Assembly: GCF_020520425.1 (NCBI RefSeq)
Contig: NC_079490.1
Span: forward strand, 2,418,001-2,482,000
Direction of reading: 5' to 3'
Length of the DNA: 64,000 nt
Origin: Spinacia oleracea
Lineage: Eukaryota > Streptophyta > Magnoliopsida > Caryophyllales > Amaranthaceae
Made by a program: the position numbers and the translations under genes. Shown one piece after another: positions 17,719 through 39,100 of this stretch; the first letter of the stretch is position 1, and each line of letters starts with the position of its first letter. The notes beneath the pieces are model-generated. The model did not search any database. It was given only the letters and a program-made list of their open reading frames with translations, and was not told where the DNA came from.

Positions 17719-23092
<5,374 letters not shown>

Positions 23093-28713: not shown

Positions 28714-31700
28714 CTAAGGTGAAGTGAGTTGCCTCAAGTTAAACTTCGACAGCTCTTTGTATTTCTCTACGACACCAATCAAGCACACGGTCTGCAGAAA
28801 GCAAAGTCGAAAAATAAGAATCAGGAGGATTTAAGGAAAGAACTAGTAATGCACGGTTTCATTAGAAAAAATAACAATTAGTGATTCAAATGTTACATTA
28901 ATATGAGTGGTAATGGATAATTTCAAAGCGGACATTAGTTAATAATATTAATTTTCAATGCCAACAACTCAAAAAGGAGTTGTATTTAGATGTAATTAAA
29001 AAAAAAGGGAGTCACTTCGTAATTTACTCTGCATTAAATATTTTGAAATCATTATTGTTTCCAAGAAACATAAATGAGTGGTTGCACTTAATTTCTAAAA
29101 AAACATTAAATTAAAATATGAATAAAAGGAAAAAAACTGCGCTATAGTATAATATATAGATATAGACTAGAACAAATAACATATTCTTTATGTACCTTGA
29201 CAATTTGGACAATTATAGTCTTGTCTGGATTTTTGAGATCTACTTTGTGTGGTTCAGGAACAGATTTCGCAACAGCGTCTATTATCTTCATCCTCTCGAT
29301 GCCAGAATTGGCACGTGCATCGTATTGAACAGCAAACTGAAGAAAAGAATCCAAAACAAATCAGTTATCTGATTTATAAGAGGTCCACAAGAACATCATT
29401 ATTAAAGTTGATGGAACTCTAAGAAGCACCAATTTCAACTTTCTAGCTAAAAAAATTTGCAGATAGGTATATTCCCATGTCAATTACTCCATAGTTAAAA
29501 ACCCACAGTTCATCTACATTCGAATACACGACGAAGAAGAAGTCACGCCATCAGTAAGCTGGCATTGTTTGTGAAGTTCAACATGCATAACATTGGCTCC
29601 TAGGCTCCGTTTGGTTTGGCGTAAAATGTTTTAGTGAAAAATGATTTTCCATGGAAAACCTTTTTCAAGGAATAACACAATTCCAAACTAGTTTTACTTT
29701 GTTTGGTTCCTTACAAGAAAATTAATAGAAAAGAGGAAAATGGGAGAAAATGGGTGAATATTGATGGGAAGAAGGAAGATGAAGGTAAGGAGGAAAGATG
29801 GAAAAGTGGTTTTCCCGTCCTTTCAAATGGAAAATGTTTTTCTACCTTTGTGGGGAGTTATTGAAATTTGTTTTCCATCCCTTGCCAAACCAAACAACGT
29901 AAAATGATTGAAAAGAGGAAAATCGTTTTGCATGAAAACATTTTACACCCTACCAAACTGAAATCAGCCTGCACATAATACTGTATTTGAAGCATATATG
30001 GGGAAGTACCTTAACCGGTGTTCCACTGTTGACAGGGAAGTATTGTTCAATAAGTGGCTTGATAGCTCTAGAGATTTCCTCTTCAGAAGAATAGCACGAG
30101 ACTTCTACTGGTAGCACTCTCAGAAGAAACCTATAAAAATGAAAATCTTAGTGAATTTCACAACAAAAAAACTACTCATTTGCTTGTTAAATAATGATGT
30201 TATTTATATATATAAAAAAACCCCTAAAGTTGAACCTTGACATATGCTTCTTTGTTCTTGAAGCAGATTCCATCAGATGCTGTCCAATTTCTCCAGGGCT
30301 AGGGTCTCCATCCCTTTTACGCATTTGGACAATGACAACACCATTACAGCCAGTATCAATCTTGGAGAAACGCCGCTGGTTCAACATAAATTTTGTTGCT
30401 TCAAATACAAATTTGATAGAAACATATTTAAAATATTTAGCTTTACAGAAGCGGTTGGGACTTGCGGGGGGGGGGGGGGGGGGGGGGGGGGAGGGGGGCG
30501 GTTTTTCCTGGTTATCACATTAACTCACCTTGCTCTTATCTCCTAATTCTTTGAGTTCAGCTTCAATTAACCTATCAACAGACATCTCTGCATTTTGATG
30601 ATTGCTTTCTAACTTCTTGGTATCACAACACTGTTTCTTTTCTAGTGGTTCTTCATTCTCCTTGCTCTTTCCATCTTCTAGTTTAGCAACTTCTTCATCA
30701 TCACCAGCAACTTGTCCAGATCCAACACCATGCAACTCCTCCTTCTCCTTGCTTTTATCTTCATCAGCTAGTTTAGCAACTTCCCCAACATCGCCAGCAA
30801 CTTGTCCAGATCCAATCTCAACCAACTGATCATCCTTCTTAGCAGGATCAGTATTTTCTTCCACCGAACTTCCATTATTTGTACCCTCTTCTGCAACTTT
30901 TTCTGACTGGTTATCTTTCTCATTCTCGTCATCATCTTCGTCATTATCAGAAGAATCAGAGTAAGTAAACTTTATTTTTTTGTTCGCAGGTTTCTCTGGT
31001 TTCGCGGCCGGGTTAGAATCTGAATCCTTGCCATCGATCAGCTCTTCTAAAATCTAAAACAAAACCAAGATAGTACTCTTCAGGATCAAAAAGGAAAAAG
31101 AAAAAAAAACCAGAAAAGATGCAGCTACTTTTAAGTATATAAACATTTAAGTATTGAGGACATAAGACACTCCAGTTACTTCTTGTTTTTGTGCATTTTT
31201 ATGCATAAATGGAAGTACAAAGAACAAGAAGCAAGCAAGACTTGATAAATTTCAAATATCGAACAGTATGTGAGTGTCTGTGTATGTGCCAATTAAGGTC
31301 CAATATGAAACAGCTGCTTTGCAATTTTTCCTGTACAATTTATGATCTGTTGTCTGTTAGTTTAACCATAATTTTTTTGGCAGTTGACAAACTCTCATTA
31401 ATAGTGTTCTTGTGTCCAACACTTCCTTGATTCTTGTAAAATGACTTTTAGAAATATCCCAACACATTTCTTCCTTGACAATTAGAGCAGTTGTCTACCC
31501 TAAGAAACAATTGTAGTGCTTGGAAACTGTGTTTGTAGGGAAACCTCGTGATGGATTTTTATTTTAAAATTTTATACTTAGAATACTGAGTTTGGACCAG
31601 TCAAAGTGTCAAACCAATGAGAAATGCCCAGTCTATTGCTCTAACAGTCTAACCTCTTCATGCAACGCTGCAAGCATACGACTTAAGTTCTTTAAATTAA

Positions 31701-33089
31701 TACCCATTATAGGTAGCATAGATAAAAAAGGTCCACATTAAGCATGATCAGAAGATTCAGAACCCATACCTACTCAATATTTCTCAAACACTCGGTTCAC
31801 AAATATTCAACCAGTTACTCTTTTCGACAGTTTGACAAGCTCTCTTTGCTGTTTTCCCCCCTCTTTTCATCACTCTCCTTTCCTCAGTTTTAAAACAATT
31901 GTTCATTATCATTACCCCATTGCCTCAAAGAGGCTCCCATAAGAAGCGGGGTAGGGGGGGGTCGGGTGTACGCAACCTTACCCCTGCAATTTCAGAGAGG
32001 TTGTTTCCAATTGACCCAAAAGCGATAATGAGACAACAACGGGACGACCATCTTCTACTTCATGGAAAGAAAGCAAAGAGGTTTTAAGAGCCATTTTGAT
32101 TTAGTCCATTACATCCCACAGCCAAAAGAATAAATGAATCTTTGGCTCCATCGGAAATGGACAATTTTAAAACAATTGTTCTATTTAAAGAAAATTCCCT
32201 AACACGTTATTTCCATCATCATTCTTTCAGCCTAAAATACACTAATAACTCTTTGAAGCTCGCTAGTATATCACTAGCCTGAAACCTTTCAAGTTCAAAC
32301 CAACAATAAAGATCGCCGAAAATCAGCCCAACTTAGACTAGTACCCATGACCAGTTACTCAGCTAGTAAGGCTCACTAATCCAACCAGTTAATCACTTAA
32401 TAAATATATCTAAGCACAAATCAAAATTAAACCACACCCACCAAGATTGTAATTTGCAAGTTCAAATCAAACCCCATCAACAAATCATACAAAATAAAAC
32501 CATAAAATTATTTGCAGAGCTAAGATTGTAATTACACCCACCAAGATTGTAATTTGCAAGTTCAAATAAAACCCCATCAACAAATCATACAAAATAAAAC
32601 CATAAAATTATTTGCAGAGAGCTAAATTAACAAAATTAACAAAATGGAGGACATAAAAATTTAAGCTTCAACAATTAGGGTGCTAAAAATCTGTTCTTGC
32701 TTAATTAAACTAAATTAAAAAACCTTCCTGAATCTATAAATCAAAGAAAAAAAATAAACAAAAAGGAATACATACAGTATCAATGACATTGATGGCTTCC
32801 TGAGAAGCTTGGTGTTCTCTTCCACCATCACAGGTTATGAAGAACCCTTGGAATCCTGGTCTTAATGGGTTATACCCCTTCTTCTTCACTGGTTTCTGAT
32901 TAAAAAACACAAAAACCCCACAAAAAATCAAAAGAACAAAATTAGAACAGTTATTAATTAAAAAAGAGAGTTAAAATCAAGAGAATGAAATTGGGGAAAT
33001 GGGGATTTTACGTTGTGGGGTAAGTAAGATCGTTTGCGCTTCTTGGGGTCGTTGGTGGTTGCAGATTTTGCTTGATTTTCAGCACCCAT
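28714..33089 (-). CDS. TAN1: THUMP-domain protein, TAN1/THUMPD1 class (7 exons, 400 aa)
   Basis: Minus-strand coding exons in order are 33089-33012, 32895-32776, 31053-30529, 30375-30236, 30130-30010, 29336-29196 and 28791-28714; all introns are GT-AG and the total is 1203 nt. Exons 1-2 give a basic N-terminus (KKRKRSYLPHN) and then GFQGFFITCDGGREHQASQEA (41-61), diagnostic of the Tan1/THUMPD1 family. Exon 3 is a long acidic, low-complexity linker with an internal repeat. Exons 4-7 carry the THUMP domain (~242-390), including DTGCNGVVIVQMRKRDGDP, FLLRVLPVEV, FAVQYDARANSGIERM and the terminal KFNLRQLTSP. In yeast and human this protein binds tRNA and helps Kre33/NAT10 make N4-acetylcytidine at position 12 of Leu and Ser tRNAs; the same role is inferred here. 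Introns carry a SINE-like insert, a 100-bp duplication, a G26 run and a MITE. Confidence 0.9.
29602..29970. mobile_element. AGGCTCCGTTTGGT-type MITE in THUMP-gene intron 5
   Basis: The left end AGGCTCCGTTTGGTTTGGCG pairs imperfectly with the right end TACCAAACTGAAATCAGCCT. The interior carries complementary TTTTCCATGGAAAA and GGAAAATGTTTTTC words. It is one of three copies in the window; the others are at 43959-44319 and 48560-48902, both in CHLD introns. The target duplication is not clear. Confidence 0.6.
30466..30491 (+). repeat. Run of 26 G (C on the gene strand) in THUMP-gene intron 3
   Basis: Twenty-six consecutive Gs, followed by AGGGGGGCGG, lie in the intron between exon 3 (ends 30529) and exon 4 (starts 30375), 38 bp inside the exon 3 donor. 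The plus strand could form a G-quadruplex. The exact length may be a sequencing or assembly estimate. Confidence 0.85.
31905..32164 (+). mobile_element. SINE-like retroposon with 17-bp TSD
   Basis: A 260-bp insert in THUMP-gene intron 2 is bounded by a perfect 17-bp direct repeat, TTTTAAAACAATTGTTC (31888-31904, 32165-32181), a length typical of retroposition. It contains TTGCCTCAAAGAGGCTCCCA, CGGGGTAGGGGGGGGTCGG, TACGCAACCTTACCCCTGC and GAGAGGTTGTTTCC, words that recall plant Au-type SINEs. A sister copy is at 38620-38837. No clear RNA polymerase III A and B boxes could be assigned, so the SINE label is tentative. Confidence 0.6.
32435..32624 (-). repeat. 100-bp tandem duplication in THUMP-gene intron 2
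   Basis: Two nearly identical copies start CACCCACCAAG at 32435 and 32535, exactly 100 bp apart, and differ at only a few bases (for example AAATCAAACC versus AAATAAAACC). High identity implies a recent duplication. Noncoding. Confidence 0.9.
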
Positions 33090-35112: not shown

Positions 35113-35261
35113 CGATGAGAAATTATTTTCTTAACATAAATGTAACTTTCCAACAAAAAAATCACCTCATTATGCAATAATATATTTTTTTGATAATATC
35201 TCAAAAAAAAAAAAAATGATAATGTGTGCAAAACCTTTTGATTTTTTTTTTTTTACCGTTG

Positions 35262-35269
35262 TATAAAAA
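35262..35269 (+). promoter_or_regulatory. TATA box of the TITAN9-like gene
   Basis: TATAAAAA sits about 300 bp before the ATG. A start site about 30 bp downstream would give a CT-rich leader spliced with a donor near 35410 (TTCAAG|GTTCCG) and an acceptor at 35565. Inferred from position and sequence only. Confidence 0.5.
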
Positions 35270-35565
35270 GGCTCTTGTTCAATCCACTTCTCTCATAACG
35301 TCCTTCTCCATTTGAATTCAAGACATCTATTCTCGCGCGCCACTCACTCTCTCACTCACTCATCTTCCACTCAAAATTTCTCCATAGGAGAGCTTCATCT
35401 TCGAATTCAAGGTTCCGCATTTGCATTTCTCTCTCCTAAATCAATTTCAGCTTCCAATTTCCCAATTGTTAAGATTAGGGTTTATGTTTCGTTGTACCAA
35501 ATTTCAAATTTCCTGGTAGTAATTTCACAATTAGTAACTGAAATTTCATGTTTTTGTTGATGCAG

Positions 35566-38500
35566 ATGGAGACGCTTTACATCAAACTTTACGAAAAGTA
35601 CTCTAAACTCAAGGTTTGCTTCTCACACTCTCTTCTTCATTTCTTAATTTCTTCATTTTAGGGCTTTATTCCCCAATTTGAGAAACTTTTTGAATTTTGA
35701 ATTGATGTGGCTTTTGTCGATTAAGTTTTCCAGGGTTTCTTGCTTAAAATTGTTGTATACTTCTTCATGTGGAATTAAGGTAGCAAAGATCGTGAGTTGG
35801 ATCAAGCTAATAAAGAACAAGAAGGCTTTTTTCCCCAAATTGAGAAAATTATTGAATTTTGAGTTATAATGTAGCTTTTGTCGATGAATTTTTCTAGGGT
35901 TTCTTGCTTAAAATTGCTGTATTTTTCTTTATGTGGAATTAAGGTAGCAAAGGATCGTGAGTTGGATCAAGCTAAAAAAGAACAAGATGGCCTCTTTCCC
36001 CCCCCAATTTGAGAAAATTATTGAATTTGTGTTAATGGGGCTTTTTTGGACGATTTTTTCTAGGGTTTCTTGCTTAAAATTGTTGTCTATTTCTTTATGT
36101 GGAATTAAGGTAGCAAAGGATCACCAGTTAAATCAAGCTAATAAAGAACAAGAAGGGTTTTATTCCTCCAATTTGAGAAAATGATTGAATTTTGTGTTAA
36201 TGTGGCCTTTTTCGATGAAAATTTCTAGGGTTTCTTGCTTAAAATTGTTGTATGTTTCTTTATGTTGGAATTAAGGTATCAAAGGATCACGAGTTGGATC
36301 AAGCTGATAAGGAACAAGAAGGAAAATTCGTTGACTATATGAATGGTATTCTTTAAAAATATTAGCTTTATTCCGGTTTATGTCTAGTTTAATTTGGCCA
36401 TTCCGTTTTACTGGTTTTAGATTAGTGTTAATTTTCTCGGCTTTCGTATTTATCTAAAACTTATAGTACATTGTGGTGTATGTTTATTACACATCTTGGA
36501 TTATGGTGGTTACTCATTTTCTTTATCCCCATTTTGATCATCATTTCAGCTGCGGAAACTCTAATAAAGCATTTGAACAATGATAAAATGAGGTTGTCAG
36601 AAGTTATTGATGAACTACGGAGTGAAGTTGTTTCCCTGAGGTGTTTATCGTTCCAAGATTCACTGTGTCTAATTTGTTAACCCTCAAATTAAGCATTGTT
36701 TTTTTTTTGGTTGCAGAACTGCTAAAGACGAACAATATGATGATTTTCAGCAACGACTAATAGAGGAAAAACAAAAGAGTAAGTATAATCAACTTCTGAT
36801 TTTGTTGATAGTTGCTTTGTGTTTCCGGAATATGCCATTTAGATAACCTGTACCAGAATTGTAGGAATTAATTGCCAGAGATAAAACATTGGTATCCTTG
36901 TTATAAATTTGTACTAAAATAGTAACTTATTATTTTGGATGCTAATCATGCCATAGTAACAATTAGGATTGCTTGATGACTGGCTATATCTAGACTAAAT
37001 TGGTAGATATACGGCCCATTTGGTAACCGGTAATAATTGGTGGGAATAAAAATAAATCTAAGTGTTATTTGGTAAGAAAATAACATAATGATGTCCATGG
37101 TAATTAAATTTTGTCTCAAACTTTGGTGCTTTTCTTCATAAATTTGCATTTCCGCCTAATACCACTCCCCAAATGGTAATGGAAGTTTATAAGAAAAGAG
37201 ATAATATTGAGTGAACTTGCCTTACCATGGGAATGGAGATTGATTTTCCTTGCAAAGTTACTTACAAATTCATTTCCGTTGACACCATTTATGGCCGATT
37301 ACCAAAAGGGCCGATAGTGCTTTTGTTGCATTTGTGTTTGACTTGTGACTGTTATTGCCTTAAATATATGCAGATCGAGACCTTTCTGCGGAGGTTGAGC
37401 AACTGCGCGAGTTACAGCAAGAGATACCGAGAAGTGACCAACATGAGGAGCCAGCTATAATCAGTATGCAACATAGCCCATCCGTGTCTCGAGAAAAAGT
37501 TAACGAGTCACCAATGAGAATGACTAGGAAAAAACGTGCTAGACTTTCAATGGAAGCTAATTCTGAAACAAATAGTACAGCAAGTGGTCTTCATGCACCT
37601 TCAACAGGAAAAAAAGTATTACCAGATCAACCGATTGATATTTCCAAAGCATATTCGCAGGTATGTGTTATTGATTTTTGAGGATGGGTTAATGGGTTAT
37701 TGGGGAAGGGTTAATGGGTTATCAAGGAAGGGTTAATGGGTTATTGAGGAAGGGTTAATGGGTTTTTGAAGAAGGGTTAATGGGTTATTGATTTTTAAGG
37801 AAGGTTAATGGGTTATTGATTTTCTTAACTGATTGTTTTCTGTGTGAACATGCAGTCAGAGTGCTGTCAGGGTAACATCGATAATGAAGGTGCGTCTATG
37901 AAGTTTACCCCACTGTTCAAGTTGAGAATTTTACTGTCAAATTGCTAAACTCTTGTTAATTAACTAGTTTTCCTTTTCAATTGTAACAGGTCCTTGCAAA
38001 TGCGTGTTTCAGAATCTTGTTGAGTCCCTAATAGACATGAAAGTTTCTGTTGCTAATCATCCTGAAGGAAGATGTATACATTTAGTTCACCAGTCCAGTG
38101 GTAATTTATTATCTTCTTTTGGCATACACTATAATTTTCCACTCCCATTTTGAAAACTAGTTTTTTTTTATCCCATCAAACCTATACTTTCTAAACTAAG
38201 TGCACTTTGATTAGAGATATCTTTAGCCTTGACTTTCCACCCCATAGATTGCAATAATATTTTGTTATGTGTTGAACTTCACCCCTGTTCCAGCTGGAAA
38301 CCCTAGACATACCACCAAATATCATCATCATTATTATTTCCCTCTTTCTTGCTTTCAGGACTTCTTTTTGAAGTTAACTGCGTTTTTAGTATAATATACT
38401 ATAGTGATTTATACACATGCATACACACACATACACATGTCTTTCATGTACATTCTTTAGAGGATGGTCGTTAGGGTGCTCGTTACCGATTTCTCTTTGC

Positions 38501-39100
38501 TTGGATCATCTTATGGTCACCAACTAATTCATGGAAAGTTGTTTTTTCCCGCATAAGTGCATACACGGAACACAGTAGTATATGATAAAATTTACACTTT
38601 CAACGGATGTGATGAAATTGTGTCCATTTCTGATGGAGCCAAGATTCATTTGTTCTTTTGGCTTTGGATGTAAATATGTAATGCACTAAATCCAAATGGC
38701 TCTTTCGCTTCCTGTCCATGAAATAGAAGATGGTCGTCCCCTTATGTCCTACCCCCCCCCCCCCCTACCCCGCTTGTTGTGGGAGCCTCTTTGAGGCAAT
38801 GTGGTAATGGTAACGAATGATAATGATGAATGAACTAATGTGATGAGATTCAACTATATCTGAATAGCTTCATCAGAAAACTCAAAAATTGTCTAATTTT
38901 GATTGATTGCAGGTTATTCATTTGATTTGTTATGGAGGAACAAGGCTTCCTCAACTGGAGATGTATGGTATCATGTTTCTTCTTTGGGGGCATTTGCTAA
39001 CGTGGCTCCCGAGTGGATGCGACGAGAGATTCTCATCTTCAGCATGAGCATGTGCCGTGTTTTCTTTGAGAGGATATCTCGTTTTATCAAACACCATTAG
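35566..39100 (+). CDS. TTN9: TITAN9-like coiled-coil protein (8 exons, 296 aa)
   Basis: Coding exons are 35566-35613, 36276-36345, 36550-36640, 36717-36778, 37374-37660, 37856-37889, 37990-38100 and 38913-39100; all introns are GT-AG and the total is 891 nt. The N-terminus METLYIKLYEKYSKLK followed by a Glu/Lys-rich KDHELDQADKEQEGKF segment matches my memory of Arabidopsis TITAN9, whose loss gives giant endosperm nuclei. Residues ~20-110 look like coiled coil (LIKHLNNDKMRLSEVIDELR, RDLSAEVEQLRELQQEIP). A basic, low-complexity middle (RMTRKKRARLS, ~137-147) could be a nuclear signal. The C-terminal third (FQNLVESLIDMKVS to FIKHH) is ordered, with Trp-rich LLWRNKASSTGDVWYHVSSLG, and is probably the conserved domain. 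No catalytic motif is visible. Intron 1 carries an array of partial exon-2 copies, intron 5 a minisatellite and intron 7 a SINE-like insert. Confidence 0.75.
35661..36345 (+). repeat. Four ~165-bp tandem units carrying partial copies of TITAN9-like exon 2
   Basis: Units start with GGCTTTATTCCCCAATTTGAG-like sequence near 35661, 35824, 35989 and 36154. Each includes intron 1 DNA (TAGGGTTTCTTGCTTAAAAT), an acceptor context GGAATTAAG, and an exon-2-like segment GTAGCAAAGGATCGTGAG through CAAGAAGG. The first three segments stop about 50 bases into the exon and run straight into the next unit, so they have acceptors but no exon-2 donor. Only the last copy (36276-36345) continues to GACTATATGAATG and a donor. 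Unit 1 also lacks one base relative to the others. Confidence 0.9.
37012..37312. mobile_element. MITE in TITAN9-like intron 4
   Basis: The left end GGCCCATTTGGTAACCGGTA and right end GGCCGATTACCAAAAGGGCC form an imperfect inverted repeat. The interior has partly complementary GGTGGGAATAAAAATAAATC and CCGTTGACACCATTTATGGC. It ends about 60 bp before exon 5. The superfamily is uncertain because no target duplication was found. Confidence 0.5.
37680..37822 (+). repeat. GGGTTAATGGGTTATTGAGGAA minisatellite in TITAN9-like intron 5
   Basis: About six head-to-tail copies of a ~24-bp unit (GGAAGGGTTAATGGGTTATT) with small changes start 20 bp after the exon 5 donor. The last copies are separated by GATTTTTAA. 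Likely length-variable. Confidence 0.85.
38620..38837 (-). mobile_element. SINE-like retroposon, shortened sister copy
   Basis: Read on the minus strand it matches 31905-32164: CATTGCCTCAAAGAGGCTCC, then a G run, then GACGACCATCTTCTA, CATGGA, TTTAGTGCATTACAT, GCCAAAAGAACAAATGAATC and GGCTCCATC. The central ~80 bp of the other copy (TACGCAACC to ACAACAAC) is absent and a 14-base C run (38752-38765) occupies the junction. Flanking repeats ATGTGATGAAATT (38607-38619) and ATGTGATGAGATT (38838-38850) agree at 12 of 13 bases. It lies in TITAN9-like intron 7. Confidence 0.6.

Follow-up and report, generated by a model that had tools for sequence, protein, structure and literature searches.

Three decoy copies of an acceptor-bearing exon 2 fragment in the first coding intron of a TITAN9-like gene of Spinacia oleracea

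Introduction

In a TITAN9-like gene of Spinacia oleracea the first coding intron contains three partial copies of exon 2, each with its own acceptor, ahead of the real one. The questions raised by this locus are how the copies arose, which of the four acceptors would be used and whether the decoys matter to the gene. The array is a natural counterpart of the classical experiments with duplicated 3' splice sites: four nearly identical acceptors are present in one intron, a complete exon follows the last only, and the Arabidopsis counterpart of the gene is essential. RNA reads of the species would reveal whether the plant spliceosome chooses the first acceptor, one with a downstream donor, or proceeds along the series. 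The most useful feature of the locus is this natural competition of four near-identical acceptors, together with AG|GT sites that renew themselves. The window, that is the whole stretch of DNA analysed, comprises 64,000 nucleotides (64 kb).

Results and discussion

The host gene

The gene is intact, with eight coding exons, 296 codons and internal stops absent from the gene model; its features and those of the array are collected in Table 1. DUF7806 (PF25091) was identified at the C-terminus of the product, residues 200-294, with E=3.8e-39 and 133.2 bits (cut-off 27), covering positions 2-95 of the 95 of the profile. This domain, which we take to be that of Arabidopsis TITAN9, is the basis for naming the host gene. 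According to the accessible text of PMC12595034, AT3G20070 is CSM1/TITAN9, a partner of the kinetochore KMN complex that is essential in Arabidopsis. The domain match and this identity make plausible the TITAN9-like label given in an earlier note on this DNA, and the host may plausibly be a kinetochore gene of CSM1/TITAN9 type.

The kinetochore family FTA4 of Pfam reached E=0.0041, yet its 17.4 bits lie under the cut-off of 24.8 and it was set aside. Searches for relatives of the 296-aa product gave 4 pattern stretches in viral contigs and 30 in prokaryote genome contigs, none of them confirmed, and the comparison with solved structures returned nothing meaningful (two rows, E=0.35 and 0.85). 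Neither Rfam families at the gathering score nor tRNA were identified in the whole window. A candidate other acceptor for exon 2 (AAAG|GATC) lies 9 nt downstream of the real one, in frame, and would give a product of 293 aa. The DUF7806 score is indifferent to this choice, 133.2 bits with 36276 and 133.1 bits with the downstream site, because the domain sits elsewhere in the protein.

Three further features of the gene were observed. In the region 35255-35565 a TATAAAAA box (35262) and ATGCAG, an acceptor-like sequence immediately 5' of the start codon, suggest an intron in the 5'-UTR, so that the first coding intron may be the second of the transcript; candidate donors of such an intron are at 35412 (-4.1 kcal/mol) and 35516 (-6.0 kcal/mol). 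Another intron of the gene contains a minisatellite (37678-37823) with a unit of 22-28 bp (TTGAGGAAGGGTTAATGGGTTA). The last coding intron carries a dispersed repeat (38621-38817) found again in opposite orientation at 32163-31902, in the region of a neighbouring gene, with 79% identity over 133 bp and 92% over 60 bp; it is possibly a small mobile element.

Table 1. Coordinates of the coding exons, the first coding intron and the four array units (positions in the window)
Feature	Position	Strand	Remarks
First coding exon	35566..35613	+	48 nt, ATG to AAG; gene model
First coding intron	35614..36275	+	662 nt; donor 35614, true acceptor 36275|36276; three decoy units and intron part of unit 4
Unit 1	35662..35825	+	164 nt; acceptor end 35779; 1-nt deletion in exon-like part
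Unit 1, further marks	TAG 35781-35783; GTGAGT 35792; read-through stop TAA 35867	+
Unit 2	35826..35990	+	165 nt; acceptor end 35943; GTGAGT 35957; in frame; read-through stop TGA 36010
Unit 3	35991..36156	+	166 nt; acceptor end 36109; without GTGAGT; in frame; read-through stop TGA 36182
Unit 4	36157..36322	+	166 nt; acceptor end 36275 (real); continues into true exon 2; GTATCA replaces GTAGCA
Second coding exon (true)	36276..36345	+	70 nt; then donor GTATTC at 36346
Coding exons 3-5	36550-36640, 36717-36778, 37374-37660	+
Coding exons 6-8	37856-37889, 37990-38100, 38913-39100	+

Structure and age of the array

The array was identified by TRF as a single tandem array at 35662-36322 (period 166, 4.0 copies, 85% matches, 3% indels, score 912) and by an independent repeat search as four head-to-tail units spaced 164-166 nt. 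With unit 4 as blastn query just the four units were recovered in the window at E of about 2e-48 or lower; no fifth copy was found there, the next match being of 13 bp (E=0.34). In each of the units, which sum to 661 nt, a stretch of 118-119 intron nucleotides leads to the acceptor GGAATTAAG; the first 46-47 nt of exon 2 follow, after which the sequence goes back to intron. Only unit 4 reaches the exon 2 donor, units 1-3 breaking off before it. The earlier note had described tandem copies of about 165 bp spanning the intron-exon border, with acceptor context in all four units and with the frame kept in units 2 and 3. TRF, the repeat search and the alignment agree with the copies and their acceptors, and the frame is indeed retained in those two units, where the exon-like part has the 47 nt of unit 4; it is lost in unit 1 because of the 1-nt deletion in its exon-like part (46 nt). 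The breakpoint was claimed to sit at a shared GG/GGG indicating slippage or microhomology. The 2-3 bp common to the flanks of the junction are present, but they are weak evidence of microhomology because at least 2 bp are expected in ~16% of random junctions (usual formula, own arithmetic).

The units differ from each other by 10-17% in pairwise comparison. In the four-unit alignment 122 of the 171 columns are invariant; a single terminal gapped column arises because position 35826 was entered in unit 1 as well as in unit 2. All six of the two-against-two sites without gaps pair unit 1 with 2 and unit 3 with 4, and other groupings have none; since one of these sites falls at the start of the unit, where the alignment is poor, and two sit side by side in a single codon, they stand for fewer than six independent changes. 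This divergence rules out an assembly artefact and, together with the grouping, points to several rounds of duplication of some age. At a substitution rate of 7e-9 the K2P distances between units (0.106-0.196) translate into about 8-14 My.

Selection on the decoys was considered from the same alignment. Over 15 codons, with ~7.5 synonymous sites, the exon-like parts of units 2 and 3 show two synonymous differences and five that are non-synonymous. The acceptor and exon part varies less than the first part of the unit when all columns are used (permutation p=0.012), and p=0.051 is obtained without the first five columns and the last. The difference in variability appears borderline, and the substitutions suggest no clear coding constraint.

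Splice signals of the decoys and the real copy

The acceptor is AAG in the four units and CAG in the other six acceptors of the gene. A candidate branch sequence (CTTAA/TTAAA) starts 36-38 nt upstream of the acceptor in every unit, and the upstream U content is 0.45, 0.59, 0.55 and 0.59 in units 1 to 4. A TAG ending 4 nt past the AAG acceptor is found in decoys 1-3, its place being taken by TAT in the real copy. No local feature was seen that would favour the last acceptor over the decoys; it differs from them in the sequence that follows and in the change from TAG to TAT. Most simply, on the grouping of the four units given above, the GTAG of units 1-3 would be ancestral and the coding copy would have become GTAT after the duplications by one substitution.

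Every acceptor is at the same time an overlapping AAG|GT site because exon 2 starts with GT. When exon 1 is joined to a decoy the junction is CTCAAG|GTAGCA, with a U1 duplex of -6.2 kcal/mol, the values being -4.9 kcal/mol for the authentic donor CTCAAG|GTTTGC and -5.7 kcal/mol for the true junction CTCAAG|GTATCA. The rebuilt decoy junction pairs with U1 better than four of the seven authentic donors of the gene, on a pairing energy that is a crude measure. A second donor-like motif, GTGAGT, is located 12-13 nt past the acceptor in units 1 and 2 (-5.8 kcal/mol) and is absent from units 3 and 4 in the alignment. The overlapping AG|GT sites, these GTGAGT motifs and the TAG/TAT contrast early in the exon part are omitted from the earlier reading, in which the copies were called acceptor-only. 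The name is right in that the authentic exon 2 donor is missing from every decoy, but it neglects the donor-like AAG|GTAGCA and the GTGAGT of units 1 and 2. The units are not complete exons with an acceptor and a donor per copy, the arrangement of mutually exclusive or duplicated exons, since the donor at 36346 is reached by unit 4 only.

Predicted products of decoy use

Read-through from the AAG of decoys 1, 2 and 3 to the exon 2 donor would yield peptides 45, 38 and 40 aa long, ended by stops 479, 336 and 164 nt ahead of the next junction; those of units 2 and 3 are the in-frame TGA codons that had been pointed out before. The TAG acceptors of the three decoys would lead to 19, 94 and 21 aa. 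If GTGAGT were used as donor, unit 1 would contribute an in-frame micro-exon of 12 nt that inserts VAKI after residue 16 (300 aa), while the 13-nt micro-exon of unit 2 would break the frame (30 aa) and the two jointly would give 34 aa.

Origin of the array and known systems

The array is probably an old neutral tandem duplication over the intron-exon border, removed mainly as one intron of 662 nt. A 166-bp segment, made up of the terminal part of the first coding intron and the adjoining 47 nt of exon 2, would have been duplicated repeatedly in tandem. The ancestral intron probably measured ~166 nt (35614-35779) before reaching its present length, and the three upstream units would be former acceptors converted to intron. 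The origin is well explained by known processes. Tandem repeats multiplying one kind of splice site are found in the interferon-induced gene IFI6/6-16, whose minisatellite yields multiple splice donors; here acceptors are multiplied instead, in a much longer unit. Zhuo (2007) reportedly traced human introns to tandem arrays.

The closest precedent is the potato RdRp gene PGSC0003DMG402000361, where, in the accessible part of PMC4974935, an intron was gained through nearly the same event, a tandem duplication over intron 1 and exon 2. As in spinach, a plant gene had the end of its intron 1 and the beginning of its exon 2 copied in tandem, the acceptor, putative branch site and pyrimidine tract were inherited, and a cryptic donor lay in the copied exon piece, its counterpart here being the GTGAGT of units 1 and 2. 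Potato has two copies and a new intron backed by 106 RNA-seq reads (PMC4974935), whereas the spinach locus has four older copies known from genomic sequence, and lengthening of the existing intron would be the simplest outcome there, not the gain of another. A tandem duplication carrying splice signals, as intron gain of this kind implies, is what was found, all four units having the acceptor, branch candidates and AG|GT. Duplication of AG/GY proto-splice sites was proposed as an intron source in the Rogers model, with cases in Drosophila (PMC2891723, accessible part); likewise the unit holds AG|GT and successive units could form an intron one unit long, but in that model AG|GT is inside an exon, whereas here it is made of an existing acceptor and the exon start. 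Searches of a literature mostly outside subscription journals turned up neither this array nor any array that multiplies acceptors in a TITAN9/CSM1 gene.

Consequences for splicing

Under the neutral duplication the main junction is most likely that of 35613 with 36276, because the last acceptor alone precedes a complete exon and its donor, as exon definition would prefer. The productive splice to 36276 is also to be expected since the downstream gene is intact and CSM1 is essential in Arabidopsis (accessible text of PMC12595034). The decoys match the real acceptor in AAG, branch candidates and U content, lie upstream and are met first, so the preference for the last copy is one that we infer. 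Decoys would be used at some level, and their read-through products would presumably be degraded because of an early stop with six introns downstream; the array itself would be neutral, a tolerated accident of duplication.

It is unlikely that the decoys are used often enough to cut the functional mRNA via early stops, with the number of units setting the output. Their local equivalence to the real acceptor speaks for such use, and the three AAG read-through isoforms are all short, stopping at 38-45 codons and 164-479 nt ahead of the junction that follows. A human partial duplication of a BRCA1 exon, predicted to double the acceptor as well as the donor site, led to a transcript that included the duplicated segment and carried a premature stop (PMC11839443, accessible part), which cautions against taking the decoys to be silent. 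No clear constraint on the decoys was seen, though, and in an essential gene selection would probably oppose an effect on dose. The proposal of the earlier note that the array tunes the mRNA level or yields functional truncated peptides is not supported.

Stepwise or recursive removal of the intron is decidedly unlikely. A decoy acceptor would act as a zero-length exon, AAG|GTAGCA: once exon 1 is joined to it, the donor formed at the junction would be spliced onward to the following acceptor, and so on up to 36276, so that decoy use would be harmless and the final mRNA seamless. The GTGAGT lying 12-13 nt beyond the acceptor in units 1 and 2 would compete with that donor, in the manner of the RS-exon model. 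The pairing of the rebuilt junction (-6.2 versus -4.9 kcal/mol of the authentic donor, and stronger than at four of the seven donors of the gene) agrees with this, and the RS-exon layout, a GT straight after the acceptor and a second GT downstream, is on record in the accessible part of PMC5126111. Such sites are ordinary, as 58 of the 162 AAG|GT sites counted over the two strands of the window, with those of the array included, reach -6.2 kcal/mol and three of the seven coding exons after an intron start with GT. The recorded sites are moreover YAG (PMC5126111, accessible part), whereas all four units here have A at position -3 (AAG|GT) and so depart from the consensus YAG|GT; unlike the recorded sites, those of spinach lie in a short plant intron of 662 nt, come from duplication and are known as sequence only. 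The real copy rebuilds a site too (-5.7 kcal/mol), and resplicing there would skip exon 2 and give a 20-aa product.

A self-correcting acceptor array is very unlikely; in it the decoys would rebuild donors that equal or surpass the original in U1 pairing, mis-splicing would be repaired and the GTAT coding copy would be the sole stable end point, because it alone lost the competing TAG in the change from GTAG to GTAT. Highly improbable is a new micro-exon, an intron gain under way as in the potato RdRp: GTGAGT is present in units 1 and 2 (-5.8 kcal/mol), the unit 1 version is in frame, the donor of the potato intron was a cryptic GTAAG within the duplicated exon fragment (PMC4974935) and a single-nucleotide exon reported in Arabidopsis indicates that tiny plant exons can be spliced (PMC4674806; both in their accessible parts), but the unit 2 version and the two together would yield the truncated products given above, a C precedes GTGAGT, and the three exon positions are unpaired with U1.

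Other tandem repeats in the window

Apart from the array, TRF identified seven arrays with a period of 40 or more in the 64 kb, six of which were inspected (all but 19445-19551); duplications of this kind, within genes or close to them, are thus commonplace in this DNA. Three tandem units of 226 bp (20462-21137) are located just ahead of an apparent acceptor, TTAAACAG|GTAAATGATACCGTGGGAAC, and stop 4 nt short of it, so this acceptor is not copied; the exon start that follows is presumably hexokinase-like, from a translation of 12 residues. The minus-strand acidic ORF 30520-31053 contains a tandem duplication of 90 bp (30656-30827, 1.9 copies) that repeats in frame the protein segment around GSGQVAGD. 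Finally, a 100-bp tandem duplication at 32434-32619 (98% matches, 1.9 copies) is apparently recent and probably lies within an intron of the minus-strand neighbour gene, with TTTGCAG on the + strand in both units.
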